IMG/VR virus record: IMGVR_UViG_3300048591_000519
Coordinates: 1 to 28,842 of that record
Direction: 5' to 3' (one strand)
DNA: 28,842 bases
From: a virus
The first letter of the stretch is position 1, and every line of letters starts with the position of its first letter. Below are positions 12,029-27,038 of this stretch, one piece after another. The notes beneath the pieces were generated by a model that saw only the letters and a program-made list of their open reading frames with translations, had not been told where the DNA came from and did not search any database. The translations under genes were made by a program, and so were the position numbers.

Positions 12029-12517
12029 TCAGGCGTTGAGAATGGGCTGCGGCGGGACGACGCCGAGCGCGTCCGAATAGAGGGAGTCCCAGGTGGAGCG
12101 GTGAGGCTTACCCGGGCGCCAGTTGCGGATGTAGTAGTCCCAGCTCGTCACGATCTGCCCAGGCGCCGGGAGTGGCCTCGGGTCGCTGTAGAGCAGCAGC
12201 CGGGCGAACGCGCAGCCGAGCAGGTCGTCCGTGAGCATCGCCGCGTACACCGCGTCGGGCGTCGCCTCGATGCCGCGCAGCACGCAGACCGCGTGGGCAT
12301 GGCGGGCGGTGGCCTTGTGTCGCAGCACGCCCACGATCCCGCCGCCCTTCTCGAACTGCCAGTAGGAGCGCGCGGGCCCGCCCAATTGCTGGCGGTACTT
12401 GAAGCGCGATTCCTGCAGCCCGATCGCGACCAGGAGCACGGTGGCCTCGAGGCTCGCGAATTTGCCGGGCAGGACCTCGGCATAGGTGCGGGCGATGATG
12501 TCGGTCGAAGTCGTCAT
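12029..12517 (-). CDS. lysozyme-like endolysin
   Basis: 162 residues; ATG overlaps the stop of the tail-tip gene (TGATG). Residues 28-50 read LLVAIGLQESRFKYRQQLGG, with a glutamate (E36) in the QESRF motif typical of lytic transglycosylase and lysozyme-like folds, followed by ARSYWQFEKGGGIVGVL. There is no signal peptide, so release would depend on the holin encoded next. It is a recurrent companion of holins in phages of this tail type. Muramidase versus transglycosylase chemistry cannot be settled here. Confidence 0.7.
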   Translation of the reverse strand: MTTSTDIIARTYAEVLPGKFASLEATVLLVAIGLQESRFKYRQQLGGPARSYWQFEKGGGIVGVLRHKATARHAHAVCVLRGIEATPDAVYAAMLTDDLLGCAFARLLLYSDPRPLPAPGQIVTSWDYYIRNWRPGKPHRSTWDSLYSDALGVVPPQPILNA

Positions 12518-15500
12518 CAGAGCGGCTCCTCGGCCGAGACGGTGTAGAACGACGGCGACCCGCCGGACAGGTTGCGGGCCTCGGCGGAGATCCAGTCATC
12601 AGTGAGGATTGAGGCGCGCAGGTACACGAACCCGACCTCGCCCGTCAGGTCCTCGCCGAGCGTCGAGTCGTCCATGCCGATATAGAGGCAATTCGCCGTC
12701 GTGTCCGGCCGCGCGGAGATGGTGGTATCCGTCGCCTCGTTGATGCCGTCGACGTAGAGCTTGCGGTTCGTGGTGCCGTTATGAGTGACGTTCAGGCGGT
12801 AGCGCTGATCCACCGTCGGTGAGGCAGAGCCGAGGATCCACAGATCCGTGGTGTTCCACAGGCCCCAGCGGTCGCTGGTGTTGTTGAAGGAAAGGGTCGC
12901 CCGAATCGAATTCGTCGCCACGCCTTCCTGGGCATAGCTGACGATCGCACAATTGGCGCCCTTCGCCGAAATCGACGCAGTGACGCCGGCCGTCCAGGTC
13001 GTGTACCGCGTGATGTCGGGCGCGAGCAGGTACGAATCCGAACCGCTGAGCAGAGCGCCGCCACCGGCGGCCACGTCCCGCGGCTCGAGGCGACGGACCA
13101 CGCCGTTTGAGCTGCCGGTCGTGTCGTGCATCAGCAGCAGCGCGTCGTCTGTGTGCCCGATGCCCTCGTAGTTGCCGCCCGTGATACCCCACACCCGGCC
13201 GCGGACCGTTCCGTTGCTCTCGACGCAGACGGTGGCATTCAGGCTATCGCTGTTGATCCAGAAACGCCGGCGCCAGTAGGTAACACCCTGAATCTGGGCG
13301 ATGGTGCTCGAGAGGCTGAGGCTGCTGACGTAGGAGAGGTCGTCCGGGTCATAGCGCCACAGCTTCGAGCCGTCGGCATAGCTGCTGACGTAAAGGTAGC
13401 CGTCGTCCGGGTTGTAGCAGCAGCTCGAGACCTCGTGGCCCTGTGCTGAAACGTCGACCGCGCCGATGAAGCTGAGGTCGGAAGCATTGAAGCGCGCGAC
13501 GTGCTGCGCGCTCCATGTCGTGATGTTGGTGTACTGCTCCATCGGGATGTAGAGCACACCGTTGATGATCTCCGGATCGCCGCAGTGATCGGTGCCGGAT
13601 ACAGAGGCGATCGGGTTCGAGTTGCTCGTGACCAGGGTGAACGACGAGTCGTACTTCTTGATCGCGTTGGTGTCGACGACGTAGTAGTGCTCGCCGTCCC
13701 AGCACACGCCCTGGTGCACGCCGAGGTCGGCCGACGTGGACACGTTGTCGAAGGTCTCGAGCAGCGTCCCGTTGACCTCGGCCGCCGATCCGTTGCCGGT
13801 GCGATCGACGAAGTCGTCGCCGAACATGAATACCCGGTGGTAACCGGCCCAGACGGCGTTGCGGCCGTTCGCCGCTCCCACGGGCACCGCGGAACGCGAC
13901 GGGTCGTCGTAGTGAATGTAGGCGTCGGTGTCAGCCGAACTCGACAGGGTCTGCCGATAGAACAGGGAACCGCGTCTGGCCTCTGGGTCGAACCGGACCA
14001 GGTCGAACGGAATGTCGGCGCCCGCGCCGGTCTTTACCCGGATGTCTCGGCCGTCGCTGAACTCTACGTGGTCCCAGAATCCGCTCGGCAAGTCGGCGAG
14101 GTCGACGAAGACCGGGAAGTCGGTCAGCGTCGCGGTCACGCTCGACGACGGCACCCGAATGCGAATCCGATAGGCCGCGCCCAGCGATAGCGCGACCTCA
14201 GCTGGGCAGCCACGGCCGACCGTGCCGGAAATCTGATAGATGCGCGCCAGCAGGCCATCCGGGACGGGACTGCCGAAGTCACTGGTTTGCTGTGCCGCGG
14301 TCCACGTGGCCGTGGCGGTGGTGGCCGTGATCGTCCGGATGACGGAGGCGCCCTCGACGATGTCGATCTCGTAGAGCTCTGACTCCTCGGCCAGGGGCAC
14401 CGATGGCCCGCTCGCGGTATCCAGCCCGAGACGACTGCGCCGATCCCAACTGATGACGATATCGCCATCGTCCTCGCGCAGCGCCTCGGCGTTGTACGGA
14501 GAGAACGGCTTGAGCGCCACGCCCTGGCCGGTAAAGTTGACCGCGTCGGTCGTCTCCAGGCTGCGGCCGACCAGCACGGCCTTGTGCGGTTGTTCGATGC
14601 CGAGCGCGGCCACATTGAGAGGCACGCGCACGATGGCCGAATCGAGGAAGACGAACCGATCGCCCGCCAATGACGTGCCGACATGGCAATCGCTGCCGCG
14701 GCGGCCACGCAGCAGGCCGGTCAGCCGCCAGTACGGCGGGCTGCCGAGATATTCCGCATCGCGGAACTGGATGATCTCCCAGCGGCCGTCGGCACCAATG
14801 GCGGCTGCGTTCAAGCCGGCCGCTAGCGAGACCTCGCTGATCGATTCCAGAGTGCCGGTATCCAGGCTCACCAGGAGCTCGTTGGTGGCGTCAATCTCGT
14901 CGGTCGGGCCCGCCGGCAGTGCACTCACCAGCTCACCAAGGGTCGCCTCGAGGGTTGCGGTCGCCACCTCCTGGTAGGTTGTGCCGCCGTCCGGTGACCG
15001 GTAGATGACCGCCCCACCAAAGGAAGTGCTGCCGATGGCTCTGACGGCCGCGTAGTAACCGGCATCATTGTCGGTGTCGCGCAGCAGCGGCAGGTCGAGC
15101 AGGACGAGATCGGCCGTACCGACGATGGCGAGCGACCCGCCGCCGGTGCCCGCGTAGGCCGCCGGCGCGCCAATGGCATAGGACTCGTAGACGCCGTCAT
15201 CATCGCGCACCAGGTCGACCCGCAGCAGGCCGGGCAGCGCGTGGTCGATGTTGACGATGCGCACCCGCTCCTGGCGGCCGTCGATCGGCATCGTGCCGGC
15301 GTCCGCGGGCTCGAGGTGAAGCCACGAATGATCGACGGTCGTCCGAATGCGGTTCCTGGCGACCCAGAGGTCGTAGAGCACGACGTCGGCAATCCGGGCG
15401 GCCTTCGTGTCGCTCATGGCGACGGCGACCTCCATGTCGCGGACTTCGACGTCGCCGGCGGCGAGGCGGGATGCGCCCTGCTCGCCGGGCTCGTAATTCT

Positions 15501-17424
15501 GCTCGGTTTGGGCGTAGTGCACGCGCAGGCGACGCGGCAGCTCGACCTCCTGCTGTCGATCGGTCTCGGCCGAAGAAGGCCGGCTGTCGCCGGCGATATG
15601 CGCCGCCAGGTCGTCCGCAGTGAAATCGAATACGGCCGCCTTGCCGCGGGTCGGCCACTTCAGTACGCCGTCGGATTCGACGCAGTCGAACCAGCCATAG
15701 GAGCGCAGCGGGCTGATGGCATCGCGCGCCGACATCACCCGCGAGACGACATATCCGTCGACGCATTCCGTCAGGTCAGAAACGTCGATCTGCTCAGCGG
15801 CGAGGCCGGCTCTGAGACAAAGATCGCTGACGATCTCGCCGAGCGTGATACAGCCATCGTCCACCCCGGCAACGCTGACGATGACCACGCCAGCGGCGCC
15901 GAAACCACCGTCGCCGGCAATCGAGGCCGGCGCGCCGAACGCAAGCGCACCGCCCCCGCCGCCGCCCCCGCCGCCGTATAGGCTTCCGTTACCACCATTG
16001 GCACCAGCAGCGCCCGGCTCTTGTGGTGAAGTGTATCCGCCGAGCCCACCTCCACCGCCACCTGCGCCCGCAACGTAGCCGGTGACGGCCGCTCCATTCT
16101 CACCGCTGGTCACGCCGGTATTGTTTGCGCGATCCGTGTGGCCGCCGGTGCCGCCCTCGTACAGCCCGTTCGGCGAATCCGCTCCGTCGCCACCATCGAC
16201 TCCTTTGGGCAGTTGTGAGAATCGACTGGTTCCACCAGCGCCGCCAGCGCCTGCGCCGAGTGAATTGTCGCCGTTCGGCTTTTCGTCGGAGCCGAAACTC
16301 TGGACAGTATTTGGGCCCCATGTAGCGCCGTGCCCTCCGCTCGAGGTCGTGCCACTGCCGCCATTGTTGTCGTTGAGGGCCCAATAAGAGCCGTTGGTGC
16401 CACCCTTGCCGGCACCACCACCACCAGCCGTGACGTGGGAACCGAATGAGCTCGAGCCGCCGGCCGTTCCGTCGAGGCCGTCCTCGTCTACGGTATGATC
16501 TGCGCCCAGACCGCCCGCGCCGCCCGCGCCCACGGTCACGGTTTCAGTTCCGCCAAGCGCACTAAGGGCCAGCGTCGCGACCGAGATCCCGCCACCGCCG
16601 CCGCCCTGGCCGCCGTATACGAATGCGTTACCTGAATTGCCGACTGCACCACCGCCGGCACCACCACCGCCGCCGATGGCGGTAACAGTCACGTCTCCGA
16701 CGGACGACGGCCGAACCCATGTACCGCTGGTGGTGAAAACCTGCTGCCCTGATCCCGACGCGACCGTCGACACTTCAAAGCGGAAATTCGGGATCCGGTT
16801 GCCGTACTCGTCCAGCTGGAAGTTGCTGAACACAACGTACACGAGATCTCGGAATGCCGAGACATTGCCGACGCCCTCGAAGCTCTCGATTGTCGGGTCC
16901 GCGAGCTGCGCCGCACTGCCTAGATATATCTCCGCATTGGCCAACAACGCGGCACTCGCGACGGCGCGCGCTGCATAGTCGGCATCGCTCTCGCCGTCGA
17001 GCTGCGGGCGAGCGTCATAGATCAGCTTGGCGTCGGCCCAGATGCGCGAAATGCCATTAACCTCGCCTTCGCACACTCCAACAGCACAGTTCACCGAATA
17101 GCTATAGGTCTTGGTCGTCTGGGTGGGGCCGCCCTTGCCGCCCTGCTTCTTCTTCGAGACGGCTTCGATGATGCCGCTCGACCAGATGACGTTGCCGGAA
17201 ATCGCGTACGTGCCGTAGACGATCGGGATCGGCGCACCGACCGCCGAGGACTGCACGTTCAGGTCGTTGAGCCGCGGGCCGCTGACGGTGCCGAGGTCGG
17301 TCGGGAAGAGCGCCGAGCCCGCCATGCTGCCGAGCGTCGCGCCGATCGCCCAGCCGACGCCTGGCAGCACGAAGCCGAGTGCTGCTCCGCCGATCGTCAG
17401 TGCGGCCTGGCCGAAATTCGACAC
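12517..17424 (-). CDS. modular tail-tip / host-specificity protein (J-like hub)
   Basis: 1635 residues from a GTG one base after the NlpC/P60 stop. Residues 1-220 are a hub N-terminus (LNVQSSAVGAPIPIVYGTYA, VGVCEGEVNGISRIWADAKL). Residues about 228-520 are a glycine-rich insert beginning FTTSGTWVRPSSVGDVTVTA, with many GGGGG runs, like glycine-rich phage fibre domains. The hub resumes at about 524 (CITLGEIVSDLCLRAGL) with a Phage-tail_3-like region to about 750. Further domains follow: a DUF2341-like domain (about 1083-1190, RIRIRVPSSSVTATLTDFP), a WD/NHL-like propeller (about 1235-1450), and a LamG/concanavalin-like end (about 1470-1630). It forms the tail tip and should recognise the host receptor. 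The domain boundaries are estimates. Confidence 0.88.
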   Translation of the reverse strand: MSNFGQAALTIGGAALGFVLPGVGWAIGATLGSMAGSALFPTDLGTVSGPRLNDLNVQSSAVGAPIPIVYGTYAISGNVIWSSGIIEAVSKKKQGGKGGPTQTTKTYSYSVNCAVGVCEGEVNGISRIWADAKLIYDARPQLDGESDADYAARAVASAALLANAEIYLGSAAQLADPTIESFEGVGNVSAFRDLVYVVFSNFQLDEYGNRIPNFRFEVSTVASGSGQQVFTTSGTWVRPSSVGDVTVTAIGGGGGAGGGAVGNSGNAFVYGGQGGGGGGISVATLALSALGGTETVTVGAGGAGGLGADHTVDEDGLDGTAGGSSSFGSHVTAGGGGAGKGGTNGSYWALNDNNGGSGTTSSGGHGATWGPNTVQSFGSDEKPNGDNSLGAGAGGAGGTSRFSQLPKGVDGGDGADSPNGLYEGGTGGHTDRANNTGVTSGENGAAVTGYVAGAGGGGGGLGGYTSPQEPGAAGANGGNGSLYGGGGGGGGGALAFGAPASIAGDGGFGAAGVVIVSVAGVDDGCITLGEIVSDLCLRAGLAAEQIDVSDLTECVDGYVVSRVMSARDAISPLRSYGWFDCVESDGVLKWPTRGKAAVFDFTADDLAAHIAGDSRPSSAETDRQQEVELPRRLRVHYAQTEQNYEPGEQGASRLAAGDVEVRDMEVAVAMSDTKAARIADVVLYDLWVARNRIRTTVDHSWLHLEPADAGTMPIDGRQERVRIVNIDHALPGLLRVDLVRDDDGVYESYAIGAPAAYAGTGGGSLAIVGTADLVLLDLPLLRDTDNDAGYYAAVRAIGSTSFGGAVIYRSPDGGTTYQEVATATLEATLGELVSALPAGPTDEIDATNELLVSLDTGTLESISEVSLAAGLNAAAIGADGRWEIIQFRDAEYLGSPPYWRLTGLLRGRRGSDCHVGTSLAGDRFVFLDSAIVRVPLNVAALGIEQPHKAVLVGRSLETTDAVNFTGQGVALKPFSPYNAEALREDDGDIVISWDRRSRLGLDTASGPSVPLAEESELYEIDIVEGASVIRTITATTATATWTAAQQTSDFGSPVPDGLLARIYQISGTVGRGCPAEVALSLGAAYRIRIRVPSSSVTATLTDFPVFVDLADLPSGFWDHVEFSDGRDIRVKTGAGADIPFDLVRFDPEARRGSLFYRQTLSSSADTDAYIHYDDPSRSAVPVGAANGRNAVWAGYHRVFMFGDDFVDRTGNGSAAEVNGTLLETFDNVSTSADLGVHQGVCWDGEHYYVVDTNAIKKYDSSFTLVTSNSNPIASVSGTDHCGDPEIINGVLYIPMEQYTNITTWSAQHVARFNASDLSFIGAVDVSAQGHEVSSCCYNPDDGYLYVSSYADGSKLWRYDPDDLSYVSSLSLSSTIAQIQGVTYWRRRFWINSDSLNATVCVESNGTVRGRVWGITGGNYEGIGHTDDALLLMHDTTGSSNGVVRRLEPRDVAAGGGALLSGSDSYLLAPDITRYTTWTAGVTASISAKGANCAIVSYAQEGVATNSIRATLSFNNTSDRWGLWNTTDLWILGSASPTVDQRYRLNVTHNGTTNRKLYVDGINEATDTTISARPDTTANCLYIGMDDSTLGEDLTGEVGFVYLRASILTDDWISAEARNLSGGSPSFYTVSAEEPL
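15865..16740 (-). repeat. glycine-rich coding insert in the tail-tip gene
   Basis: Encodes residues about 229-520 of the tail-tip protein. Dense GGC/GGT codons give many glycine runs with interspersed Asn, Ser and Thr. It interrupts the hub between FRFEVS and CITLGEIV, which would be continuous in a hub without the insert. The simple sequence makes it prone to length change. Confidence 0.75.
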
Positions 17425-17425
17425 G

Positions 17426-17830
17426 TCAGTACTCCACGCCCGGCAGCGCCCACGCGCTATGCGTCATGCGAATCCAGCGCCCGCGGTAACCGTGCTCAAC
17501 GACCCGGCCCACGGACTCGTAGGCGTGGATCAGCGTCTCGCCGGTGAAGACAGCGACGTGCGCGGCGATCTTCGTCCAGGCGATCACGACGAGCGCGCCC
17601 GGCACGGCCTTCGGGATCGGCCGGCAGTGCTCGCGCAGGCGCTCGACGAGCTCGCCGGTCGGCAGGCGGCCATAGTTCGCGATGTCGAGCCGCTGATCGA
17701 ACAGCCCGAGCGACTGCCCGACCACGATCGGCAGCCCGACGCAGTCGATGCCACTGTAGTCGCGGCCCTGGTGGCGAAACGGCACGCCGACCCAGTTGCG
17801 GGCCTCGTCGATCACGCGGGCCGGGATCAT
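17426..17830 (-). CDS. NlpC/P60 peptidase of the tail tip
   Basis: 134 residues; ATG overlaps the DUF2163 stop (ATGA). Family landmarks are present: catalytic cysteine C30 in YSGIDCVGLP, an early WVGVPFRHQGRDY, and histidines H91 (AAHVAVF) and H102 (LIHAYE). Proteins of this kind sit at the tail tip and cut peptidoglycan cross-links during DNA entry. The order DUF2460 - DUF2163 - NlpC/P60 - hub is the one found in gene transfer agents and related siphoviruses, with a cassette interrupting it here between the first two. Confidence 0.9.
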   Translation of the reverse strand: MIPARVIDEARNWVGVPFRHQGRDYSGIDCVGLPIVVGQSLGLFDQRLDIANYGRLPTGELVERLREHCRPIPKAVPGALVVIAWTKIAAHVAVFTGETLIHAYESVGRVVEHGYRGRWIRMTHSAWALPGVEY

Positions 17831-18807
17831 GGTTCCTCGAACTCGACGTCACGCGGCCAGTTGAGGAAGCGCGACGGGCGCGGCTTCTTCTCGGCCGTCT
17901 GGCCGCCGAACGCCGCGAGCTCGCCCATGCCGGGCACCCACGCGCCGTGGCCGCGGAAGTTGACGAGGTTCGCGAAGCGCCCCTTGCACATCGCCGCGGA
18001 CTTGTCGCAGCCTGGTCGGATCGTGAACGTGTCGCCGACCTCGATGTCGTAGGGCATCGGCAGGTAGAGCAGGATGTCGCCGGGGCTGCCGATCGCGTCC
18101 TGCTTGACCTCCATGCTGAAGGTGTCGTTCGCGCCCGACGTCCAGGTGACCAGGCCGCCGTTGAAGTAGCCCGCCTCGCCCAGCGCCGGGGAGCCATAGG
18201 CCACGCTCGCCGAAAACTGGCGATTGCTGCCGACGGCCGTCACGGTGCCCGTGCTGGTCAGCGCAGTGATGTCGATGCCGCAGCGCGTGTCGCCGAGCTC
18301 CGCATCGCAGCTCGAGCCATAGGTGCGGACGATGTTCTGGGTAAGGCGCTGAGCGAGGCCACGCAGCTCGGTCCGGTACTGGCCCTCGGCCGTGCGGCGG
18401 ATCTCGCCGATGTTGCCGGTCCTGAGCACGATCTGCCCGTCGTCCGGCGCCTGCCAGTTCACCATGAACAGCACGACGGAGGCGTCGTCGAACAGCCCCG
18501 CCTCGATGTCCGCGGCCGACAGGTCGATCAGGCTCAGGTCGCCCTGGTTGATCGCGCCCGTGACCTCCATGTTGTCGACGCTCATGTCTGAGGTCGAGCG
18601 CACATCGGAACCGGTGATGCCGGCGTGCGCGAGATAGGTGCCGGCGTAGGCGTTCGGCGGCGAGCCCCCGGTCGCAATCGTCAGGTCCTGGTCGTGCTCG
18701 GTGCCGAGGATCAGCACGCCGTCGCGGCGGGTGATGCGCCAGCAGACGGCGAGCGTGGTGACGTCGCCCTGCAGATGAGTCTGCAAAGCGACGGGAAGTG
18801 TTCTCAC
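17827..18807 (-). CDS. DUF2163 tail hub protein, probable Fe-S binder
   Basis: 326 residues from a GTG overlapping the upstream stop (GTGA), reading VRTLPVALQTHLQGDVTTLA. It has the DUF2163 N-terminal part (WRITRRDGVLILGTEHDQDL) and the BR0599-type C-terminal part (NFRGHGAWVPGMG). Four cysteines (C167, C176 in CDAELGDTRCG; C267, C274 in CDKSAAMCKGRF) are placed like the ligands of the iron-sulfur cluster reported for the related gene transfer agent hub and lambda gpL. It should form part of the tail-tip hub ring between the distal tail protein and the hub. It comes directly after the sugar-transfer cassette. Confidence 0.88.
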   Translation of the reverse strand: MRTLPVALQTHLQGDVTTLAVCWRITRRDGVLILGTEHDQDLTIATGGSPPNAYAGTYLAHAGITGSDVRSTSDMSVDNMEVTGAINQGDLSLIDLSAADIEAGLFDDASVVLFMVNWQAPDDGQIVLRTGNIGEIRRTAEGQYRTELRGLAQRLTQNIVRTYGSSCDAELGDTRCGIDITALTSTGTVTAVGSNRQFSASVAYGSPALGEAGYFNGGLVTWTSGANDTFSMEVKQDAIGSPGDILLYLPMPYDIEVGDTFTIRPGCDKSAAMCKGRFANLVNFRGHGAWVPGMGELAAFGGQTAEKKPRPSRFLNWPRDVEFEEP

Positions 18808-19523
18808 GCCACGCGATCCTTCATCAGGTGCTGCTCGGTCCACCACAGATCCGAGTGCTCGGCCTGTTCGTATCCCGGCATGAACGGCATGCCGAGCGTG
18901 TAGTGCGCGAGCTGCACGCCGGCCGGCTTCGGCTGCACGCCGACCAGCCAGTTCCAGGTATTCGGCAGCTCGCCGATCTCGGCGTCGGTCAGCCAGCAGA
19001 ACTGGTGCAGGTCGCGGCCCGGCACCCCGTTCGCGAGGCGCAGGTTGAGGGCCCTGTTGGATGGGTGGTCGCAGTTGAACAGCATGACGCTCGACCAGTT
19101 CTTCCGGCGGTAGCGGGTCTGCTCGCAGCCGTCCATCTTCGTGCCCTCGTCGCCCGCGTGCTCGTGCTTGACGCACATCACCGCGTACTTCGGGTCGGCC
19201 AGGGCAAAGAGGCGCGCGACGTCGCCGAGGAACAGCATGTCGCAGTCGATGAACAGAGCCCAGCCGGTCTGCGCGAGGATCGGCACCAGGAAGCGCGTGT
19301 TCGAGAACTGCGTCGAGCACGGCGCATCCGAGAGCACGTCCCAGAGCGAATTGCGGTGGATCCGGTACGGGCGCTGCGAAAGCCCGCAGGCCTGCAGCTT
19401 GTCGAGGACCAGCGGCGTGACCACGAGGGGTCGGGTCGAATGCCGGCGCAGCGAGAACTCCGCGACCCGGTAGGCTGGCTCTTCACGCGGGTCGAAGCCG
19501 ATGTAGACCCGCAGTGCCGTCAC
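18804..19523 (-). CDS. glycosyltransferase with DxD motif (GT8-like)
   Basis: 239 residues from a GTG overlapping the FkbM gene's stop (GTGA). The N-terminus (LRVYIGFDPREEPAYRVAEF) and the later ALFIDCDMLFLGDVARLF, with DCD at 93-95, are typical of nucleotide-sugar-dependent GT-A enzymes of the GT8 type. The C-terminal part has NWSSVMLFNCDHP and ELPNTWNWLVG, also common in this group. It would transfer a sugar from a nucleotide-sugar donor; donor and acceptor are unknown. It is the last gene of the inserted cassette and is coupled to the DUF2163 hub gene. Confidence 0.8.
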   Translation of the reverse strand: MTALRVYIGFDPREEPAYRVAEFSLRRHSTRPLVVTPLVLDKLQACGLSQRPYRIHRNSLWDVLSDAPCSTQFSNTRFLVPILAQTGWALFIDCDMLFLGDVARLFALADPKYAVMCVKHEHAGDEGTKMDGCEQTRYRRKNWSSVMLFNCDHPSNRALNLRLANGVPGRDLHQFCWLTDAEIGELPNTWNWLVGVQPKPAGVQLAHYTLGMPFMPGYEQAEHSDLWWTEQHLMKDRVA

Positions 19524-20251
19524 GACCACACCATGAAGTGATCGCCGCCGATGCAGAACTCCGAGCGCATGCCGAGCCGCTCGAGCCAGTGCAGCGCGCC
19601 GTCCGGCTCCATGCCGAGCCGCCCGTCCTCGCCCTTCTGCTCGACGACGACCACCGGCCGGCAGCGGCGCAGCGTCTGCTCGGCGCCCTTCACCACGTCG
19701 AGCTCGTAGCCTTCGACGTCGATCTTGATCAGGTCGACGTCCTTCAGGTCGAACGAATCCAGCGTGTCGATCGGGAACGGCCCGTCGCCGTCGATGCGCG
19801 TATGCCCGGTGTGTCCCTCTTGGAGCGCGAGTCCGACGGCGCCGGAGCGGTTGCCGAGCGCACAGCGCACAAGCGTGGCGTTCGGGTTCGGGACGTTCCA
19901 GGGCCAGATGTCCGCGGTCACTGGGTTCGGCTCGAAGGCCCAGACGGTATCGAACAGGTCCGCCAGGTGCATCGACCACAGGCCCACATGGGCGCCGATG
20001 TCGACCGCGCTGCGGCGCTGCTTGACGTGCTTCATCGCGTACTCGAGCTTTCGGTACTGGTAGGTCAGCCGGCCATTGACCTCCCGGACGGCGCCCGTGG
20101 TCATCATCTCGACGAGGTGATGCTCGCTGAGCGGCAGCCAGACCCGGCCTACAAGCTGGGAGTCCGGAGGACCGAAGCCACGGCGGTCCGAACAGTTGCC
20201 GGCGTGATCCGTGACCACGCGCGCGTGCAGGCTGGGTGCCGAATTCGCCAT
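19520..20251 (-). CDS. FkbM-family SAM-dependent methyltransferase
   Basis: 243 residues from ATG at 20251, preceded by GAGG 7 bases upstream. This start implies an unusual 103-base overlap with the upstream gene, but no other start in frame precedes the methyltransferase fold. The SAM-binding motif VDIGAHVGLW (83-92), WAFEPNP (104-110), and LIKIDVEGYELDVVKGAE (about 174-191) are the FkbM hallmark. The family methylates hydroxyl groups of sugars and polyketides. Next to several glycosyltransferases, it probably caps a glycan. Confidence 0.85.
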   Translation of the reverse strand: MANSAPSLHARVVTDHAGNCSDRRGFGPPDSQLVGRVWLPLSEHHLVEMMTTGAVREVNGRLTYQYRKLEYAMKHVKQRRSAVDIGAHVGLWSMHLADLFDTVWAFEPNPVTADIWPWNVPNPNATLVRCALGNRSGAVGLALQEGHTGHTRIDGDGPFPIDTLDSFDLKDVDLIKIDVEGYELDVVKGAEQTLRRCRPVVVVEQKGEDGRLGMEPDGALHWLERLGMRSEFCIGGDHFMVWS

Positions 20252-20886
20252 CCAAGTGCCTCGGGGTCGTCGACCGCCAGGTTGTGGTGTAAGTCGTAGC
20301 CGGTGTTCGCCGGTCGCAGGTAACCGCCGAACAGCACGACGACCCGCCGGCCGAGCGCGGCGGCGACGTGGTGCAGCGCGCCCTCGGGCAGCACGGCCGT
20401 GGCGCAGCCAGCCATCAAGTTGCAGGCGTCGGCGAAGTCGCGCGTTTCGAGCTTGATCACGCCGGCGAGCCACTTCGTGCCCGGGTTGCCGAGCTGCGCC
20501 CAGGGCACGTCCGGATAGTCGTGGACGAGCTCCTGCCATCGGCCCCACTGCTTGTTCGGGCTCGCCGTGGCCTTGATGTGCGGCTCGACGAGCACGAGGC
20601 CCTCGGCGCGCGGGTCCGGGCGCACGTCGAACAGCTCGCCCGGGCTCGCCCGCCAGCTGGTGAACGCCCAGCGGTCCTTCGTGGTGCGCTTGTAGTCGAT
20701 GTAGGGCCGGCAGCTCGGGCCGTTCACGATCGCAGGGAACTCGCCCGGCTCGCCAAGTCGCGCCACGTACGGCGCCCGCTCCCAGAGCCAGTGCCAGCGC
20801 CGGACGCCGCCCTTGCCGTGGATCTGCACCTTGCAGCCAGCGCGGCGCGCCTGGCCAAGGACCAAAAGCTCGTCGCCGAGGCCCAC
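20149..20886 (-). CDS. GT9-like glycosyltransferase
   Basis: 245 residues from a GTG immediately after the upstream TGA. The N-terminus MGLGDELLVLGQARR and the C-terminal LPEGALHHVAAALGRRVVVL (166-185), followed by FGG, match the heptosyltransferase-like GT-B fold (GT9), in which the second segment binds the nucleotide sugar. The usual lengths are about 300-350 residues, so this is a shortened form. It may add a heptose or another sugar. Its 3' end overlaps the FkbM start by 103 bases. Confidence 0.65.
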   Translation of the reverse strand: MGLGDELLVLGQARRAGCKVQIHGKGGVRRWHWLWERAPYVARLGEPGEFPAIVNGPSCRPYIDYKRTTKDRWAFTSWRASPGELFDVRPDPRAEGLVLVEPHIKATASPNKQWGRWQELVHDYPDVPWAQLGNPGTKWLAGVIKLETRDFADACNLMAGCATAVLPEGALHHVAAALGRRVVVLFGGYLRPANTGYDLHHNLAVDDPEALGWRIRHPACTRAWSRITPATVRTAVASVLRTPSL

Positions 20887-21507
20887 TCAGACGACCATCT
20901 GCAGTTTCTGGCTGTTCTTCCAGAAGCGCATCGCCGGGCCCTTCATGTACTCGGCGTAGCGGCGCAGCTCGATCGAGACGTCGCCGAGCGCATAGGTGCC
21001 CGGCGCCGTGGGCTGGCCGAGCGCGGTGTACAGATCGGCGAAGGCGATCGAGTCGCCGTGCCAGGCCTTGCGGTCGGTCGTCATCGGCTCGATGGCTTCG
21101 AGGACCCGCTCGAACACCGGCAGCGCAGATCGACGCGCCAGGCGCAGCGCCGGGCAGATGTGCGGCCCGCTGTCCTGCCGATACAGCAGCATGCAGTCGG
21201 CTTCAGTCGGTTGAACCGGCCGCAGGATCTCGGAGTCCGGCTCCGTGAACAGGTAATCGTCCGTGCCTGCCTCAGCGAGGAACGTCGAGAAGCAGACCTC
21301 GCGATTGTAGACCACCTCGGCCGGGTCGAGTCCGCTGAAGCGTATGGTGCGGTGCCCCCAGCCCTCGTGGCCGGGCAGCGTCAGGTGAATCACCTCGAGG
21401 TCGAGCTCCTCGCAATTGCGAAGGAACTTCTCGGCGATCCGCTTGTACAGTCCGGCCGGCGCGTCCCACAGGGGCTTGGCGTCGGCGTGGTAATAGACGA
21501 CCTTCAC
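20887..21507 (-). CDS. putative GT-A-like glycosyltransferase
   Basis: 206 residues from a GTG overlapping the upstream stop (GTGA). It begins VKVVYYHADAKPLWD and contains TDDYLFTEPDSEILRPVQ, a DxE-type metal-binding variant, and KAWHGDSIAFADLY, which looks like a GT-A acceptor loop. The length is short for a full transferase. No family name is certain; the call rests on these motifs and on lying between sugar-transfer genes in the same operon. Confidence 0.5.
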   Translation of the reverse strand: MKVVYYHADAKPLWDAPAGLYKRIAEKFLRNCEELDLEVIHLTLPGHEGWGHRTIRFSGLDPAEVVYNREVCFSTFLAEAGTDDYLFTEPDSEILRPVQPTEADCMLLYRQDSGPHICPALRLARRSALPVFERVLEAIEPMTTDRKAWHGDSIAFADLYTALGQPTAPGTYALGDVSIELRRYAEYMKGPAMRFWKNSQKLQMVV

Positions 21508-22265
21508 GGCTTCAGACGCTCCCAGACCTCGCCAGAGCGCATCTCTGCGAGAGTCCACTGGTGACCGGCGATACGGGCGAACAGGTCGCGGCGCTCGTCC
21601 TGCGTCGGTCGGTAAGGGTTCTCGATCTGTTCCCACAACGTCCCGAGGCGGGCGGCGCAGAACGTCGCCTCGGTGACGATCACCGGCACCCCGGCGGCCA
21701 GCGCATCGAGCGCCACGGCCGATGAGTGGGTGATCACCAGCCAGGCGTCCCGCAGCGCGACCTCGATCGGCTGCAGCCGGCCCCAGCGGTTCGGCTTCTG
21801 CCGGAACACGATCGGCCGGTCGGTGTGCTGCCGGACCTTCTTCGTGATGCGCTCGCTGAAGCACACCGGGGAGGTGCCGGCCCAGAGCTGGTAGAAGCCG
21901 GGCGACTGCATCGCGACCAGGACGTGCCGGCCGCCTGTGCGCGTCGGTGCCACGTTGACGCCGAGCAAGTCCAGGCGCGCGAAATCAGGCTGACCCCGGC
22001 CGTCGCACCAGAGCCGCTTGTGGCTGATCCGGTAATACTCGCCGCGGCGCCAGTAGCCGTGGTCGACCTGATACCAGTCCGGCAGGACGCCGGGCTGCAT
22101 CAGCGCCGCCTGGCGCGCGGCCATGCCGGAAATGAACCCGATGTTACCCCGCGCCTGCCAATCGATGACGACCTGGCCGCCGCAGCCGTCAGCCAGTGCG
22201 TTGCAGAGACTCAGGCTGTACGGCTTGCGATGGTCCGCGTAGCAGGTGACGGAAGGCGTGACCAG
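21504..22265 (-). CDS. capsule-type glycosyltransferase, paralogue of the upstream gene
   Basis: The ATG at 22124 gives 206 residues but has no ribosome-binding site and would lose a region conserved with the upstream paralogue. The open frame continues upstream as VTCYADHRKPYSLSLCNALA, then QVVIDWQARGNIGFISGM, which aligns with the paralogue's N-terminus. A CTG at 22265 with GAGGAG 7 bases before it gives 253 residues. This overlaps the upstream gene by 77 bases. The C-terminal part has AWLVITHSSAVALDALAAGV (a GT-B-like donor site) and EVWERLKP. The start is a hypothesis; the reading frame itself is not in doubt. Confidence 0.6.
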   Translation of the reverse strand: MVTPSVTCYADHRKPYSLSLCNALADGCGGQVVIDWQARGNIGFISGMAARQAALMQPGVLPDWYQVDHGYWRRGEYYRISHKRLWCDGRGQPDFARLDLLGVNVAPTRTGGRHVLVAMQSPGFYQLWAGTSPVCFSERITKKVRQHTDRPIVFRQKPNRWGRLQPIEVALRDAWLVITHSSAVALDALAAGVPVIVTEATFCAARLGTLWEQIENPYRPTQDERRDLFARIAGHQWTLAEMRSGEVWERLKP

Positions 22266-22992
22266 ACCCGATCTCCTCGACCGTCCACTGCGCCCAGGCG
22301 AGGCGCGTCAGAAATTCGCCGCGATCGCCCCGGAAGGGCTCGCCGAGCGTTTTGCCGAAGGGCCGGGCCGCCGGTGCGCCGATCCACTGCGGCAGGCCGT
22401 GATAGACCGGCACGCCGTAGAGCAGCGCCTTGATCGCCGCCCCGCTCGCCCAGGTGACGACGAACTTCGCGCCGGCGAGCTGGGGATACAGGGTCTCGTT
22501 GTGCTGCTTGGCGCCCGGGTGCCCGCGAACGACGACGCGGTGCCCCATGGCCTGCAGCTGCTTCGCGGCCCGCTGATGCCAGCCCGAGGGCTGCGCCACT
22601 GGCGGGGAGCCGATGCCGCGCTGGGCGAGCACCAGGGCGTAATCGCCACCCGTGCGCCACGGCCACCAGTCGGCGTCGAAGATGTCCGCACGTTCGGGCC
22701 CGCCGATCGGCCAGCGGCCCGCGCCGGCGTTCCAGTTGAGCGCCAGCGAGTACCAGACCTTGCCGGACCACTCGCGGCCGAGGTAGCCATTCTCAGCGAC
22801 GATGACCGTCCCGCCGGCGGCCTCGTACTGCAGCGCCATCTGATGACCGGCGCCGTACCTATTCCAGATCAGCAGCGCGTTGCCGGGACGTGGGTCTATG
22901 GGCCCGATCTCGTAGCCGCAGGCACGCAGGCCGTCGCAGAAGGCGTCCCGCCGGTAGTGCGGGGCCTCGCGGACGGCGACGTACGCCCTCAC
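22189..22992 (-). CDS. capsule-type glycosyltransferase
   Basis: 267 residues, ATG overlapping the stop of the coiled-coil membrane protein (ATGA). It has a GT-B-like plan: an N-terminal domain with ALLIWNRYGAGHQMALQYEA and GTVIVAENGYLGREW, and a C-terminal domain with HRVVVRGHPGAKQH, KFVVTWASGAAIKALLYGVP and WTVEEIGSG. The GHPGA and the TWASG..K.LL pattern resemble capsular polysaccharide export and synthesis proteins. It is paralogous to the next gene along most of its length. The C-terminal 20 residues after FRHLL are probably unstructured tail read over the neighbour's start. Confidence 0.6.
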   Translation of the reverse strand: MRAYVAVREAPHYRRDAFCDGLRACGYEIGPIDPRPGNALLIWNRYGAGHQMALQYEAAGGTVIVAENGYLGREWSGKVWYSLALNWNAGAGRWPIGGPERADIFDADWWPWRTGGDYALVLAQRGIGSPPVAQPSGWHQRAAKQLQAMGHRVVVRGHPGAKQHNETLYPQLAGAKFVVTWASGAAIKALLYGVPVYHGLPQWIGAPAARPFGKTLGEPFRGDRGEFLTRLAWAQWTVEEIGSGHAFRHLLRGPSQAVQPESLQRTG

Positions 22993-23276
22993 GGCCGCCG
23001 AGCAGCGTCGTCCAGCAGCGTTTCGATGCGGTCGAGTCGCTTCACGATGTCGACCTTGAGCTCGGCCTGGTAACGCTCCATCTGTGCGGAGCGCATCTCG
23101 AGAGCGTTCAGACGGGTTGCCGCCTCCAAGTGCTCGAGCTGCTGCATGCGACGGTCCATCTGGTCGAACCGTTCCATCATCTGCCCCGTCGAGAACACCA
23201 GCGACAGCACCAGGGCGCCGTCGACAATTAATGACCCGAGTGGCACGCGAAATCGCGTCATGCTTTCTGGGCTCAT
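22989..23276 (-). CDS. membrane-anchored coiled-coil protein
   Basis: 95 residues. Three adjacent start codons (GTG 23282, ATG 23279, ATG 23276) are possible; ATG 23276 best fits the spacing to GAGG. Residues about 13-32 (PLGSLIVDGALVLSLVFSTG) form one transmembrane helix. The rest is a charged heptad-like coiled coil (MMERFDQMDRRMQQLEHLEA, then MERYQAELKVDIVKRLDRIE). It is a common type of small phage protein. It begins the inserted cassette after DUF2460, and might anchor or scaffold the transferases, but that is speculation. Confidence 0.65.
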   Translation of the reverse strand: MSPESMTRFRVPLGSLIVDGALVLSLVFSTGQMMERFDQMDRRMQQLEHLEAATRLNALEMRSAQMERYQAELKVDIVKRLDRIETLLDDAARRP

Positions 23277-23297
23277 CATCACCTCGCAGACTGTTGG

Positions 23298-23936
23298 CTA
23301 ATCCGCGCTGACGCGGATTTCTTTGAGCGAGAACGAGACAGCCTGCTGTCGGTGACTGATGATCTCGACCGGGAAAGAACCGTCAAAGCGCATCGGCAGA
23401 TCGAACTCGCCGCCCCAGGTCAAAGTCCCGGCGGGCGTGAACAACAGCGACACACGCCCCGTCGTGTAGTCGACGGTGTAGTGCGTGGTCTCGGTCTTGA
23501 GCGTGCCACCGTCGGCGATCAGGATCGTCCCGCTCACCGGTTTGAGGATCGGCCGGTCCTGTGACAGCACACCGTAGGTGTAGCGCTTGACGAGCTGATA
23601 CTCCGCCGGGCTCTCGCCGACGACCGCGAGCAGCGGGCAATCGGTCGATGCTGGGCTGCTGCCGACCGCGCACGACTTGAAGTCGGTGTAGTCCTTGACC
23701 CGGAACCCGTAAGCCGGGCCGCCGACCGCGTGATAGAAGCGCAGCAGCTCCTGCACGGCCGGATCGCCACCCTCGCTCGGCCCCACGGTGAGTGTGATGC
23801 GAGTGAGCGGGTACGCCCAGTTGCGGTTGCGTCGCTCGACACCGCTCGCCCGCTCGATCGTGGTGACCGAGTACATGGGCTCGGAGACGAACCCGTAGCG
23901 CGGGCAGCCTGGGAAGCGTGGCGTTTCGAGAAACAT
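23298..23936 (-). CDS. DUF2460 distal tail protein
   Basis: 212 residues; ATG overlaps the tape-measure stop (TGATG). It matches the DUF2460 family along its whole length: FLETPRFPGCPRYGFVSEPM, then ERASGVERRNRNWAYPLTRI, LLRFYHAVGGPAYGFRVKDY and the terminal SFSLKEIRV. The family forms the distal tail ring that joins the tail tube to the tip in gene transfer agents and similar siphoviruses. Here its usual partner DUF2163 is separated from it by the seven-gene cassette. Confidence 0.92.
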   Translation of the reverse strand: MFLETPRFPGCPRYGFVSEPMYSVTTIERASGVERRNRNWAYPLTRITLTVGPSEGGDPAVQELLRFYHAVGGPAYGFRVKDYTDFKSCAVGSSPASTDCPLLAVVGESPAEYQLVKRYTYGVLSQDRPILKPVSGTILIADGGTLKTETTHYTVDYTTGRVSLLFTPAGTLTWGGEFDLPMRFDGSFPVEIISHRQQAVSFSLKEIRVSAD

Positions 23937-26059
23937 CAGTTATTCCGGCCGTTGGCGCGGGAAGCACCGCGCGCCGCGGCCGCCGCGATCTGCTGTTCCG
24001 TGGCCCGCGAGACGGTGCCGTTCGGTGCGTTGATCGTGAAGTTGTTCTGGACGGTCATGCTCGCCGAGCGCATGCCGAGCGTCGGGCTGCGGATCGGCGA
24101 AGGCATCGCGGCCACGAGCCCGCCCGCGGCGAACCCGGGCAACGACTGCAGCGCCTGCATGCCGACGCGGTTGAAGGACTCGAGGAAACTCATCGCGCCT
24201 GGCTGTCGCGTCACTTCGGAGCGCGTCACGAACTCGCCGGCGTGCACGATGCCGGCCGGCTCGAACTTGCTGCCGTCGCCCGTGTAGCCGCCACTCGCCA
24301 GGCCGATCGACGCGAAGTCGAAGCCGTTGATCGTGCCGATGCTGGAGCTGGCTGCGGACCCACCGCCGAACAGTCCGCCCAAGACGCCGGCCGCCTTGCC
24401 GAGCCAGCCGCCCCCGGAGCTCACGCCACCCGTGCCGAAGATCTTGCCGGCGATGTCCGCCGCGATGGCCTCGGCCGCCATGCGCTGCAGCATCTTCGCG
24501 AACGAGTCGACGAGCCCTTCGATGCCACTCTCGAACGGATCGAATATGAAGTCGGCCAGGATGCCCTGCACGTTGCGGCTGGCCTCCTCAAAGAACACGC
24601 TGAGCTGCTCCTGCTCTTTCTCCGGGAAGATCCGCTCGGCCGTGATGGTGATCGGCTCGAGTCCCTCCATCTCGAGGCGGGCGAGCGCCGCGGCAGCCTG
24701 GTCGGCCAGGTTCGGGTAGGTGGCTGCGAGCTGCTCGAGCGCGTACTTCGTTTCCTGGTACTGCGCGATCTGATCTTCGACGGGCGTGCGCAGTCCCTCG
24801 ATCGCGGCAATGCCCGCCGCGTAGACGTCCTGGTAGGCCTTGGCCTGGTCGCGCAGAGCGTCGGCGGTGTCGCGCGCAGGCTTCGCTGCCGGCTTGCCGT
24901 CGCCGCCCGTGCCAAGGTTGTATGGATCGTCTTTCTTCGTCGGCTCCGGTTTCACGAACGGCGCCTCAATGTTCTGGCCGTAGTCCCTCAACAGGCCCTC
25001 CAGCCGCTTCAGCTCGGCCTGCAGCTCATCCTCGGACCACCACTCGACGATGCCCTCGCGGCCGAAGAACCGCAGCCGCTCCGAGGGGTTCTCGAGCGCT
25101 GATCGAACCTTCGCGATGTCCTGATCGATGCGGACAGCGTCGCCCGCCGCGGCACCAAAGCGGATCGCCGCGATTTCCTCGCCCGCGAACTTCGCGGCAC
25201 CCGCGGCCGCCGTCAGACCCTCGACGGCTTTCTGACTCGCGAGAATCATGCCGGAAAACAGCGTGTCGGCAGATGCCTTCGTCTGCGGATCCTGCAGCAC
25301 CTTCACGAGCTCGTTGACCGCTTCGGTAACCGCCGGAACGCCCGTGTTCACCTCGAGCAGGTCGCCGAAGGCGTTCTGCACGGACTTGAGCGCGCCGCCG
25401 AAGGTGTTCCGGATCGCGCGCGCCTGGCCGCCGAACTGCACCCCGAGCTCCTTGAGGATGACCTCCTGGGCCTTCGCAACCTCGCCAGTTTCGATGAGGG
25501 ACTTGATGAGGTCCTTCTGCGACGCGGTGAGCTGGACGCCCGAGCGCTGCAGCGCCGTCGCACCCTTCACCGGATCGTTGAGCGCCTTGCCAACCAGCAG
25601 CGCCGCGGACTGCAGGTCCATGTTGAGCGCCGTCGACAGGTCGAGCACGGCTTCGGTGGCGGCTGTGAACTGGTCGCCGCGCACGTTCGTGAACGTGAGT
25701 AGCACGGCTTGCATGGCGACGACGGCGTCATCGCCGAACGCCGTGACGCGCTGCAGCTGGCCGGCGACCGCCTGCAGCTGCTTCGAGGTGAACCCGGAGA
25801 CGCCGCCCGTCGACTTGAGCACCTGCTCGAGCTTGGCCGTCGCCTGCTCGGCCTCGATCGTCGCCTGGACGATCTTGCCGAACCCGACGCCAGCCACGAG
25901 ACCCGTGATGACGCCCTGCAGCGTGCGGAACCCGGACTTCATCTTCCGGGTGAGCGCGTCCATCTCGCGCGTCGCCTGGTCCGCGCCTTTCTTGAAGCCG
26001 CCCGCGCGCAAAATTAAGTCGACAGTTAGCGCGCCGAGATTTCTGCTAGCCACGATCAT
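23936..26059 (-). CDS. tail tape-measure protein
   Basis: 707 residues from ATG at 26059, overlapping the end of the homing-endonuclease gene by 14 bases. The N-terminus (TVDLILRAGGFKKGADQATR) and the region TSKQLQAVAGQLQRVTAFGD, ALNMDLQSAALLVGKALNDP and LKSVQNAFGDLLEVNTGVP are typical of tape-measure proteins. The C-terminal part has glycine-rich hydrophobic stretches and GGYTGDGSKFEPAGIVHAGE, which is diagnostic of this class. It sets the tail length and would pass into the host membrane with the DNA. At about 0.15 nm per residue it implies a tail of roughly 100 nm. Confidence 0.93.
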   Translation of the reverse strand: MIVASRNLGALTVDLILRAGGFKKGADQATREMDALTRKMKSGFRTLQGVITGLVAGVGFGKIVQATIEAEQATAKLEQVLKSTGGVSGFTSKQLQAVAGQLQRVTAFGDDAVVAMQAVLLTFTNVRGDQFTAATEAVLDLSTALNMDLQSAALLVGKALNDPVKGATALQRSGVQLTASQKDLIKSLIETGEVAKAQEVILKELGVQFGGQARAIRNTFGGALKSVQNAFGDLLEVNTGVPAVTEAVNELVKVLQDPQTKASADTLFSGMILASQKAVEGLTAAAGAAKFAGEEIAAIRFGAAAGDAVRIDQDIAKVRSALENPSERLRFFGREGIVEWWSEDELQAELKRLEGLLRDYGQNIEAPFVKPEPTKKDDPYNLGTGGDGKPAAKPARDTADALRDQAKAYQDVYAAGIAAIEGLRTPVEDQIAQYQETKYALEQLAATYPNLADQAAAALARLEMEGLEPITITAERIFPEKEQEQLSVFFEEASRNVQGILADFIFDPFESGIEGLVDSFAKMLQRMAAEAIAADIAGKIFGTGGVSSGGGWLGKAAGVLGGLFGGGSAASSSIGTINGFDFASIGLASGGYTGDGSKFEPAGIVHAGEFVTRSEVTRQPGAMSFLESFNRVGMQALQSLPGFAAGGLVAAMPSPIRSPTLGMRSASMTVQNNFTINAPNGTVSRATEQQIAAAAARGASRANGRNN

Positions 26060-27038
26060 TTACCCATGCGAAGGTCTTGCCACGGACAACGTCGGCGACC
26101 GCCCAATAGCTGCAGCCAATCTCGCGAGCGACATCGGCATGCGGCGCGCCGGAGCGCTTCATTTCTCTAATTCTCCGAACCTGAGATTCATTCAGGGCGT
26201 TCTTGCTTTCTCTCATCGCTGCCGCGGTGTTGGCGATCCGCTCTGCCGAATATGGCCCGGTTCCTTTGCCTTTCCGGTTCTCAGACATCATGCGCAAGGA
26301 GTCAGTGGAATGCCTGCGACCCCTGAACGAACTCGGACGACCAACTGCGGCCGCCTTCATCTTCCCGATAGTTTCGGCGGTGTGTGTGTACCCGAGCTGC
26401 GACCCTGCCTTCGGCGCGCAATTGAGTTTCGGGCGCAGCACATCGATCGCGCGCTGCTCGTAGAAGATCAGGTGACGCCGATCGCAGCGGATCAAAGTGC
26501 GGAATCCGAACGCCTCAGGCCCGTGCTTGTTCCAAGCTCTTTGCAGCGCGACCGAGTGGTGCTGCCCGCGCTCAAGGTGCGCCAGGTGCTGACGCCACCG
26601 CTTCGCGAGGTCCGTGGCGCTACCAACGTAGCGACGATCGGTTCCTATCTGGACAATTTCATAGATTCCAGCCGCCCGCTTTTCAGGTCGCTGGCGATGG
26701 GTCAGAAGCGAGGCACCCGCGGCGATGACATTGATCGGCTTCGCCTTCACGGCCAAGTTCTCGATCCGATCATCGGCGGGGTCGCCATTGATGTGGGTCA
26801 AAATCCCTGCCGGCGCTGAGCCGTGGTGCCAGATCCAGACTAGGTGGGAGGTCATCACATTGCCGCCGAGGTAGGGGGCGCGCCGATAACCGCCGGCGAC
26901 GATGTGGCCGATCTCCACACCAACTCGTGCGCCTCGACCGCGCGCGACGCGGATCAATCGGCCGCTCTCCGGCACGTAATTAAAGGTCGCGCGCACGCGA
27001 TCTCCGGTGAGCCTTTTGACGCGCCCGAGTGTTGTCAC
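26046..27038 (-). CDS. double-nuclease homing endonuclease (HNH + GIY-YIG)
   Basis: 330 residues from a GTG overlapping the stop of the chaperone gene (TAGTG). Four modules are visible. HNH_3-like: HLVWIWHHGSAPAGILTHIN (H65, H82), G and the N94 of RIENL. GIY-YIG: GIYEI (124-128), RRYVGSATDLAKRWRQH, with E194 in FYEQRAID. NUMOD3-like repeats: YTHTAETIGKMKAAAVGRPS and SENRKGKGTGPYSAE. A C-terminal helix-turn-helix: SQVRRIREMKRSG and ADVAREIGCSYWAVADVV. Known homing enzymes usually have one nuclease core plus such DNA-binding modules; both HNH and GIY-YIG in one chain is uncommon. It lies between the tail chaperones and the tape measure and ends 14 bases inside the latter. Confidence 0.8.
   Translation of the reverse strand: MTTLGRVKRLTGDRVRATFNYVPESGRLIRVARGRGARVGVEIGHIVAGGYRRAPYLGGNVMTSHLVWIWHHGSAPAGILTHINGDPADDRIENLAVKAKPINVIAAGASLLTHRQRPEKRAAGIYEIVQIGTDRRYVGSATDLAKRWRQHLAHLERGQHHSVALQRAWNKHGPEAFGFRTLIRCDRRHLIFYEQRAIDVLRPKLNCAPKAGSQLGYTHTAETIGKMKAAAVGRPSSFRGRRHSTDSLRMMSENRKGKGTGPYSAERIANTAAAMRESKNALNESQVRRIREMKRSGAPHADVAREIGCSYWAVADVVRGKTFAWVNDRG

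Follow-up and report, generated by a model that had tools for sequence, protein, structure and literature searches.

The window analysed here is the whole of a linear virus record of 28,842 nt in IMG/VR, IMGVR_UViG_3300048591_000519 (W for short), whose minus strand carries a siphovirus tail operon interrupted by a cassette of seven co-directional genes, among them putative glycosyltransferases and a methyltransferase. On that strand the operon comprises the tail terminator, the major tail protein, a chaperone, an inserted homing endonuclease, the tape measure gene and DUF2460, then the cassette genes A to G (18804-23282), and then DUF2163, an NlpC/P60 gene and a hub gene like that of gene transfer agents (GTAs). 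A preliminary description of this DNA had counted seven genes between DUF2460 and DUF2163 and had supposed that these two tail genes are normally neighbours. Both points hold: comparing gene order with and without the cassette, we found that DUF2460 and DUF2163 abut or overlap in phages that lack it at this site (for example L064 and L076, the L-numbers being labels of the related loci compared).

The cassette occupies the same tail site in L045, L060 and L061. In L048 and the near-identical contigs L010, L011, L047, L076, L077 and L130 it lies between the major capsid protein (MCP) gene, followed by a further gene termed X, and the head-tail adaptor gene Ad1, and there DUF2460 and DUF2163 touch. 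L045 and L048 share one collinear block of 4,833 bp with 87% DNA identity, which runs exactly from the start codon of A to the stop codon of G, and outside it just two short similar stretches. As this block is collinear at both sites, the cassette has moved between head and tail sites as a whole, in one direction or the other. In L062 and L063 the DUF2460/DUF2163 gap is filled otherwise, by X together with a GT8-like gene.

The block exists in two alleles: allele I (the window, L061 and L012) contains D and lacks a radical-SAM/SPASM gene, whereas allele II (L045, L060 and L048) lacks D and has an extra segment, which in L048 encodes a radical-SAM/SPASM protein between F and G (L048:10794-11813); radical-SAM/SPASM enzymes modify peptides or sugars. 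The DUF2163 gene of the window is closer to that of L045 (98% identity) than to that of L061 (94%), while its C and F genes are closer to L061 (99% and 98%) than to L045 (70% and 64%), and backbone and cassette have therefore been exchanged between phages. Among relatives the ratio of nonsynonymous to synonymous substitution rates (dN/dS) is mostly 0.05-0.4 for cassette genes (0.7 for F between alleles), indicating that purifying selection acts on all of them. Since the genes are kept in relatives at low dN/dS, and since DUF2460 and DUF2163 adjoin in cassette-less phages, the cassette is no chance product.

The genes are tightly packed. GTGA overlaps, which together with ATGA overlaps had been thought to join most of them, occur at four of the seven junctions (A/B, C/D, F/G and G/DUF2163, the last coupling G to the next gene as described); no junction within the cassette shows an ATGA overlap. 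D and E abut, longer overlaps join B to C (about 77 nt) and E to F (about 103 nt), and about 15 nt separate A from DUF2460. When the region was scanned for promoters and terminators, the results were near chance level, with one weak promoter-like match (9/12) about 80 bases upstream of A. Because there is almost no intergenic room for a promoter, the genes are mostly translationally coupled and the scans are near chance, the cassette most likely depends on late transcription; it appears, as first proposed, to be co-expressed with the structural genes. From this apparent dependence on the late structural operon, it is most likely active during virion assembly.

The enzyme families of the cassette genes are assigned with differing firmness (Table 1). 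On profile evidence F is unambiguously the FkbM methyltransferase that had been named, exceeding the curated cut-offs of both PF05050 (69.8 versus 22.7 bits) and TIGR01444 (77.4 versus 37.7 bits). E is, as named, a GT9-like protein, just under the PF01075 cut-off (20.6 bits, cut-off 22); its TIGR02195 match is to lipopolysaccharide (LPS) heptosyltransferase II, and it has homologues in the Caulobacter jumbo phages CcrColossus and CcrBL9. For G, read earlier as a GT8-like transferase with a DxD motif, the motif is invariant (FxDxD) across all 15 aligned sequences of a phage family, but the GT8 match falls below its cut-off (PF01501, 15.9 versus 24.3 bits, E 0.01), and GT8 and glycogenin entries of the PDB are matched only at E 0.07 and above.

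B and C had been called two paralogous capsule-type glycosyltransferases. They are paralogues, and the AlphaFold model of B matches the transferases of Kdo (3-deoxy-D-manno-octulosonic acid) KpsC, KrkA and WbbB (Foldseek E 1e-7 to 1e-4), but neither gene has a usable Pfam match. It is the B model that has the KpsC fold, C being assigned by paralogy only, and a joint B/C profile ranks KpsC first in the PDB (E 0.018). In that weak alignment no Asp stands at the B/C position corresponding to the KpsC nucleophile D160, so Kdo transfer by B or C is not to be assumed. A KpsC (PF05159) reference protein, sought in the Mesorhizobium and Rhodomicrobium genomes at hand, was not found there. Upstream of its conserved N-terminus C has no ATG, GTG or TTG, the first ATG being at 22124; its start is likely the CTG at 22265 (minus strand), which has GAGGAG about 7 nt upstream and is conserved in L061, L045 and L048 (L051 has ATG).

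A is indeed a membrane coiled-coil protein, in which a heptad-like helix comes after a single hydrophobic 19-mer (Kyte-Doolittle 1.93); it travels with the cassette in close relatives and is missing from most distant cassettes. The label GT-A-like for D, by contrast with these, was not confirmed: D has no family match in Pfam, PHROG, NCBIfam or the hhalign comparison, and its single-sequence AlphaFold model is unusable (predicted local distance difference test, pLDDT, 34.5). Within the cassette we identified no sugar-nucleotide synthesis gene, no dedicated mobility gene, and no Pfam match to a gtr-type flippase or polytopic bactoprenol transferase.

Table 1. The cassette genes and the neighbouring tail genes, with window coordinates and supporting evidence
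Feature	Coordinates	Strand	Evidence
DUF2460 tail protein, upstream cassette flank	23298..23936	-	Pfam PF09343 8e-39
Gene A, one membrane segment and coiled-coil-like helix	22989..23282	-	Hydropathy; profile matches in close relatives only
Gene B, KpsC-fold putative glycosyltransferase	22189..22992	-	AlphaFold2 pLDDT 86.9; Foldseek best KpsC E 1e-7, TM 0.57
Gene C, paralogue of B	21504..22265	-	Profile similarity to B; DUF6716 putative glycosyltransferase 0.004 (below cut-off); conserved CTG and Shine-Dalgarno sequence
Gene D, optional gene of allele I	20887..21507	-	Relatives in W-type cassettes only
Gene E, GT9-like glycosyltransferase	20149..20886	-	Pfam PF01075 3e-4; TIGR02195 1e-4
Gene F, FkbM-family methyltransferase	19520..20251	-	Pfam PF05050 4e-19; TIGR01444 1.5e-21; phrog_8156
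Gene G, GT-A/GT8-like transferase	18804..19523	-	phrog_28018 3e-53; FxDxD in 15/15 sequences
DUF2163 / phiJL001-Gp84 hub-attachment protein, downstream flank	17827..18807	-	Pfam PF09931 5e-52, PF09356 3e-23
NlpC/P60 tail protein	17426..17830	-	Pfam PF00877 1e-4, phrog_329 2e-13
Hub / host-specificity protein with Gly_rich_2 insert	12517..17424	-	Phage-tail_3 5e-33, Rcc01698_C 3e-26, Gly_rich_2 1e-5

The phage is probably temperate, since the plus strand of the window carries integrase and RecT-like genes. A near-identical contig, IMGVR_UViG_3300048839_000968 (L006/L042; 36,405 bases, 99.8-99.97% identity to the window over aligned stretches), adds the terminase, prohead protease, major capsid protein, portal and connector genes. 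Both its ends fall inside the cassette, as if strain variation broke the assembly there, and are 1.87 kb apart on the window; on the assumption of circular permutation, the genome would be about 38.3 kb long. The homing endonuclease-like open reading frame (26046-27038, minus strand; phrog_314 / phrog_99) separates the tail assembly chaperone gene from the tape measure gene; it is present in this contig, has a diverged copy in L064, and is absent from L045 and L061. The hub gene encodes about 550 additional C-terminal residues (12517-14180, minus strand) relative to the hubs of L058 and L061.

Gene X is the first gene of most related cassettes. In the lineage of the window it is found near Ad1 and the head-connector genes, 0.66-1.3 kb beyond the window in the near-identical contig (L126:847-1494; 253 bits with an iterative profile), and its relatives match phrog_4603, a family labelled 'alpha-2,3-sialyltransferase'; a Pfam match to MptE-like proteins is below cut-off. 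Related sets of X, B/C, E, a methyltransferase and G follow MCP in L048, L049 and L051, follow Ad1 in L126, L045 and L056, and precede TerL in L019 and L115. In CcrColossus and CcrBL9 the region from the tail fibres to the lysis genes holds X, B, a C-type gene, G, a methyltransferase and E. Upstream of TerL, a Mesorhizobium contig carries X and G with three genes of the B/C type, and in virus S20, whose recorded source is a Tetraselmis culture, the head maturation protease and head closure genes enclose a pair of X genes, an FkbM-like protein and annotated glycosyltransferases. Homologues of X also include D3 orf7, between MCP and Ad1, and P1 pmgO and pmgP, for which a late promoter, LPpmgL, is annotated; in their surroundings are the methyltransferase D3 orf13 and the annotated glycosyltransferase P1 pmgQ.

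Related cassettes also occur in prophages, often among virion or lysis genes, and a scan of bacterial genomes with the G profile gave seven loci. A recognised virion gene lies within 6 kb in 28 of 50 representative loci, which were chosen by hand and are not mutually independent. PHROG assignment of 84 neighbours of the remaining loci returned major head, scaffold, closure and terminator proteins as well as, near some lone G genes, ribonucleotide reductase. Three further arrangements were seen around X. Its MptE-like domain is fused to Methyltransf_23 in L024:8699-10471 and L026:6182-7483, an independent link between X and methylation; in Klebsiella phage Eowyn (L137:790-2875) X stands at the genome end beside an unknown gene and an annotated methyltransferase; and a glycerophosphodiester phosphodiesterase-like gene is among the X-linked genes of a related phage (L070:2071-2733).

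We consider it probable that A to G, together with X, serve to glycosylate and methylate one or more virion proteins in the cytoplasm late in infection, and would thus form a mobile, late-expressed virion-decoration cassette. Soluble transferases, namely X (MptE-like and annotated as sialyltransferase-like), B/C (KpsC fold), E (GT9) and G (GT-A with DxD), would build a short glycan on the acceptor, presumably from host nucleotide sugars, as the cassette has no genes for their synthesis; F would O-methylate a sugar, with A possibly anchoring the enzymes to the membrane. By swapping alleles and cassette position through recombination, sister phages may change the surface chemistry of their particles in a serotype-like manner. 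We infer the acceptor, the order of the steps, the sugars, the restriction of expression to late infection, and the benefit. This reading is favoured because related sets recur at different sites in morphogenetic operons, because flippase, polytopic transferase and base-hydroxymethylase genes are lacking, and because actinobacteriophages offer a precedent: mycobacteriophages glycosylate capsid and tail tube with their own glycosyltransferases (Freeman 2023, as cited in PMC12619734 and PMC12363180), and glycosyltransferase and methyltransferase genes of Rhodococcus phages have been interpreted likewise (PMC13313380).

Several observations pull the other way. A virion glycan has been demonstrated for no member of the group; KpsC-fold, GT9 and GT8-like proteins are also enzyme types of the LPS core and capsule linker, and A is a membrane protein; some lone G relatives have ribonucleotide reductase and not virion genes nearby. 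Nor is operon position diagnostic, since the transferases of mycobacteriophage Che8, for which virion glycosylation is proven, lie outside the structural operon.

The preliminary description had gone further, suggesting as target the tail itself or, alternatively, host surface glycans at lysis, and as a possible acceptor the glycine-rich insert of the hub; neither the tail nor the insert was supported in the role proposed. The same block follows MCP and X in sister phages, related sets use other late-operon sites, and X itself is at a head-connector site; because one block serves from head and tail sites alike, genomic position does not name the acceptor. The insert is present in the hubs of the clade with the cassette at the tail (32-34% Gly) and absent in L062, L064 and L065. 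It is also absent from the hub of L013, which has cassette genes C, E, F and G, and its similarity does not track the allele: the window's insert is closer to that of L045 (62%) than to that of L061 (51%), although its cassette is of the L061 type. The insert is thus unlikely to be the unique acceptor and is not required.

The strongest rival, which we nevertheless judge unlikely, is that the enzymes modify a host lipid-linked glycan. Working at the cytoplasmic face as lysis approaches, they would alter the LPS core or capsule linker and so keep the progeny, once released, from sticking to debris or superinfecting; the target would be the host surface and not the virion. B resembles the KpsC/WbbB Kdo transferases, E the LPS heptosyltransferases and G the GT8-like enzymes, all of inner-leaflet LPS or capsule types, A has a membrane segment, and the set borders on lysis genes in the Caulobacter jumbo phages. 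However, the cassette brings neither flippase nor polytopic transferase, the block is found with capsid, connector and tail genes, arranged in several ways, and A, the membrane protein, is missing from most distant cassettes.

Still less probable is a selfish or neutral block, cargo that inserts seamlessly at start-stop junctions with little benefit to the virion. Its movement as a block and its absence from the tail site of many relatives would fit, as would the finding that P1 can dispense with pmgO, pmgP and pmgQ in plaque growth (PMC10695390), from which it follows that any benefit of the cassette is conditional. Yet every gene is under purifying selection, the DxD motif is conserved, and unrelated phages have repeatedly assembled these gene families.

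Lysogenic (serotype) conversion, in which the prophage would express the cassette and alter the surface of the lysogen, is suggested by the integrase gene of this probably temperate phage and by the promoter-like match ahead of A, but is very unlikely in view of the tight packing in the late tail operon, the lack of gtr-type genes and the related sets in large Caulobacter phages. Glycosylation of modified bases, for which multi-transferase DNA modification in other phages offers a parallel (Pyle 2024, as cited in PMC12619734), is the least credible of all, as no gene of the thymidylate-synthase or dCMP-hydroxymethylase type occurs in the window record or in three related ones, among which is the nearly complete record of 36.4 kb, the position is late and structural, and Kdo-transferase-like and FkbM enzymes are unsuited to it.

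Among known systems the closest precedent for virion decoration by the cassette is the virion glycosylation of mycobacteriophages (Che8 gp108-110, Corndog and Myrna; Freeman et al. 2023, in the account given by PMC12619734 and PMC12363180). Like Che8, the cassette pairs phage-encoded transferases with a methyltransferase-like partner (in Che8 the C-terminal part of gp108, judged by eye) and is not specific to any host pathway gene. Unlike A to G, gp108-110 lie outside the structural operon and have a proven virion glycan, and no homology was detectable between A-G or X and gp108-110 (all profile scores under 10 bits, hhalign probabilities of at most about 1%). The likeness to CcrColossus gp126-131 and CcrBL9 gp527-522 lies in the single late cluster; there, however, the methyltransferase is not of the FkbM type (Methyltransf_23 in CcrColossus), A and D are absent, and the site is that of tail fibres and lysis. 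P1 (pmgO/pmgP/pmgQ) and D3 (orf7/orf13) likewise have, among their morphogenetic genes, members of the X family and a gene annotated as a transferase or methyltransferase, and no homologues of B, C, E or G were detected in P1 or D3.

B shares its fold with the beta-Kdo transferases KpsC, WbbB and KrkA, to which the B/C family has weak profile similarity, but the weak alignment noted above has no Asp opposite the KpsC nucleophile, and the TM-score similarity is only about half. The gtr serotype-conversion cassettes of temperate phages encode a flippase and a polytopic bactoprenol transferase. Like them, the cassette is a phage-borne, swappable sugar-modifying block; unlike them, it has neither gene and is embedded in a late operon, and on its gene content it is not a gtr cassette. 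It may instead be functionally akin to the virion-glycosylation genes of mycobacteriophages, with a fair chance of representing a broadly shared module.

The cassette is described in no paper that we found in the open-licence literature, which is weak evidence of absence, and virion glycosylation is already established in a few actinobacteriophages. We tentatively suggest, while thinking it somewhat likelier to prove wrong than right in this general form, that tailed phages of Gram-negative bacteria share a modular and movable virion-decoration kit, in which an X core is combined with swappable B/C, E, G, D or radical-SAM and methyltransferase genes, which moves between head and tail sites and exchanges alleles to give serotype-like coats, and which includes P1 pmgO/pmgP/pmgQ and D3 orf7/orf13. 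If this is true, a precise mobile unit that passes from capsid to tail, together with the links to P1 and D3, would make sugar coats of phage particles a general and directly testable phenomenon, with bearing on adsorption, on the survival of particles in the environment and on the recognition of phages by antibodies; whether a particle sugar of P1 depends on pmgO/pmgP/pmgQ would be a tractable question in E. coli.

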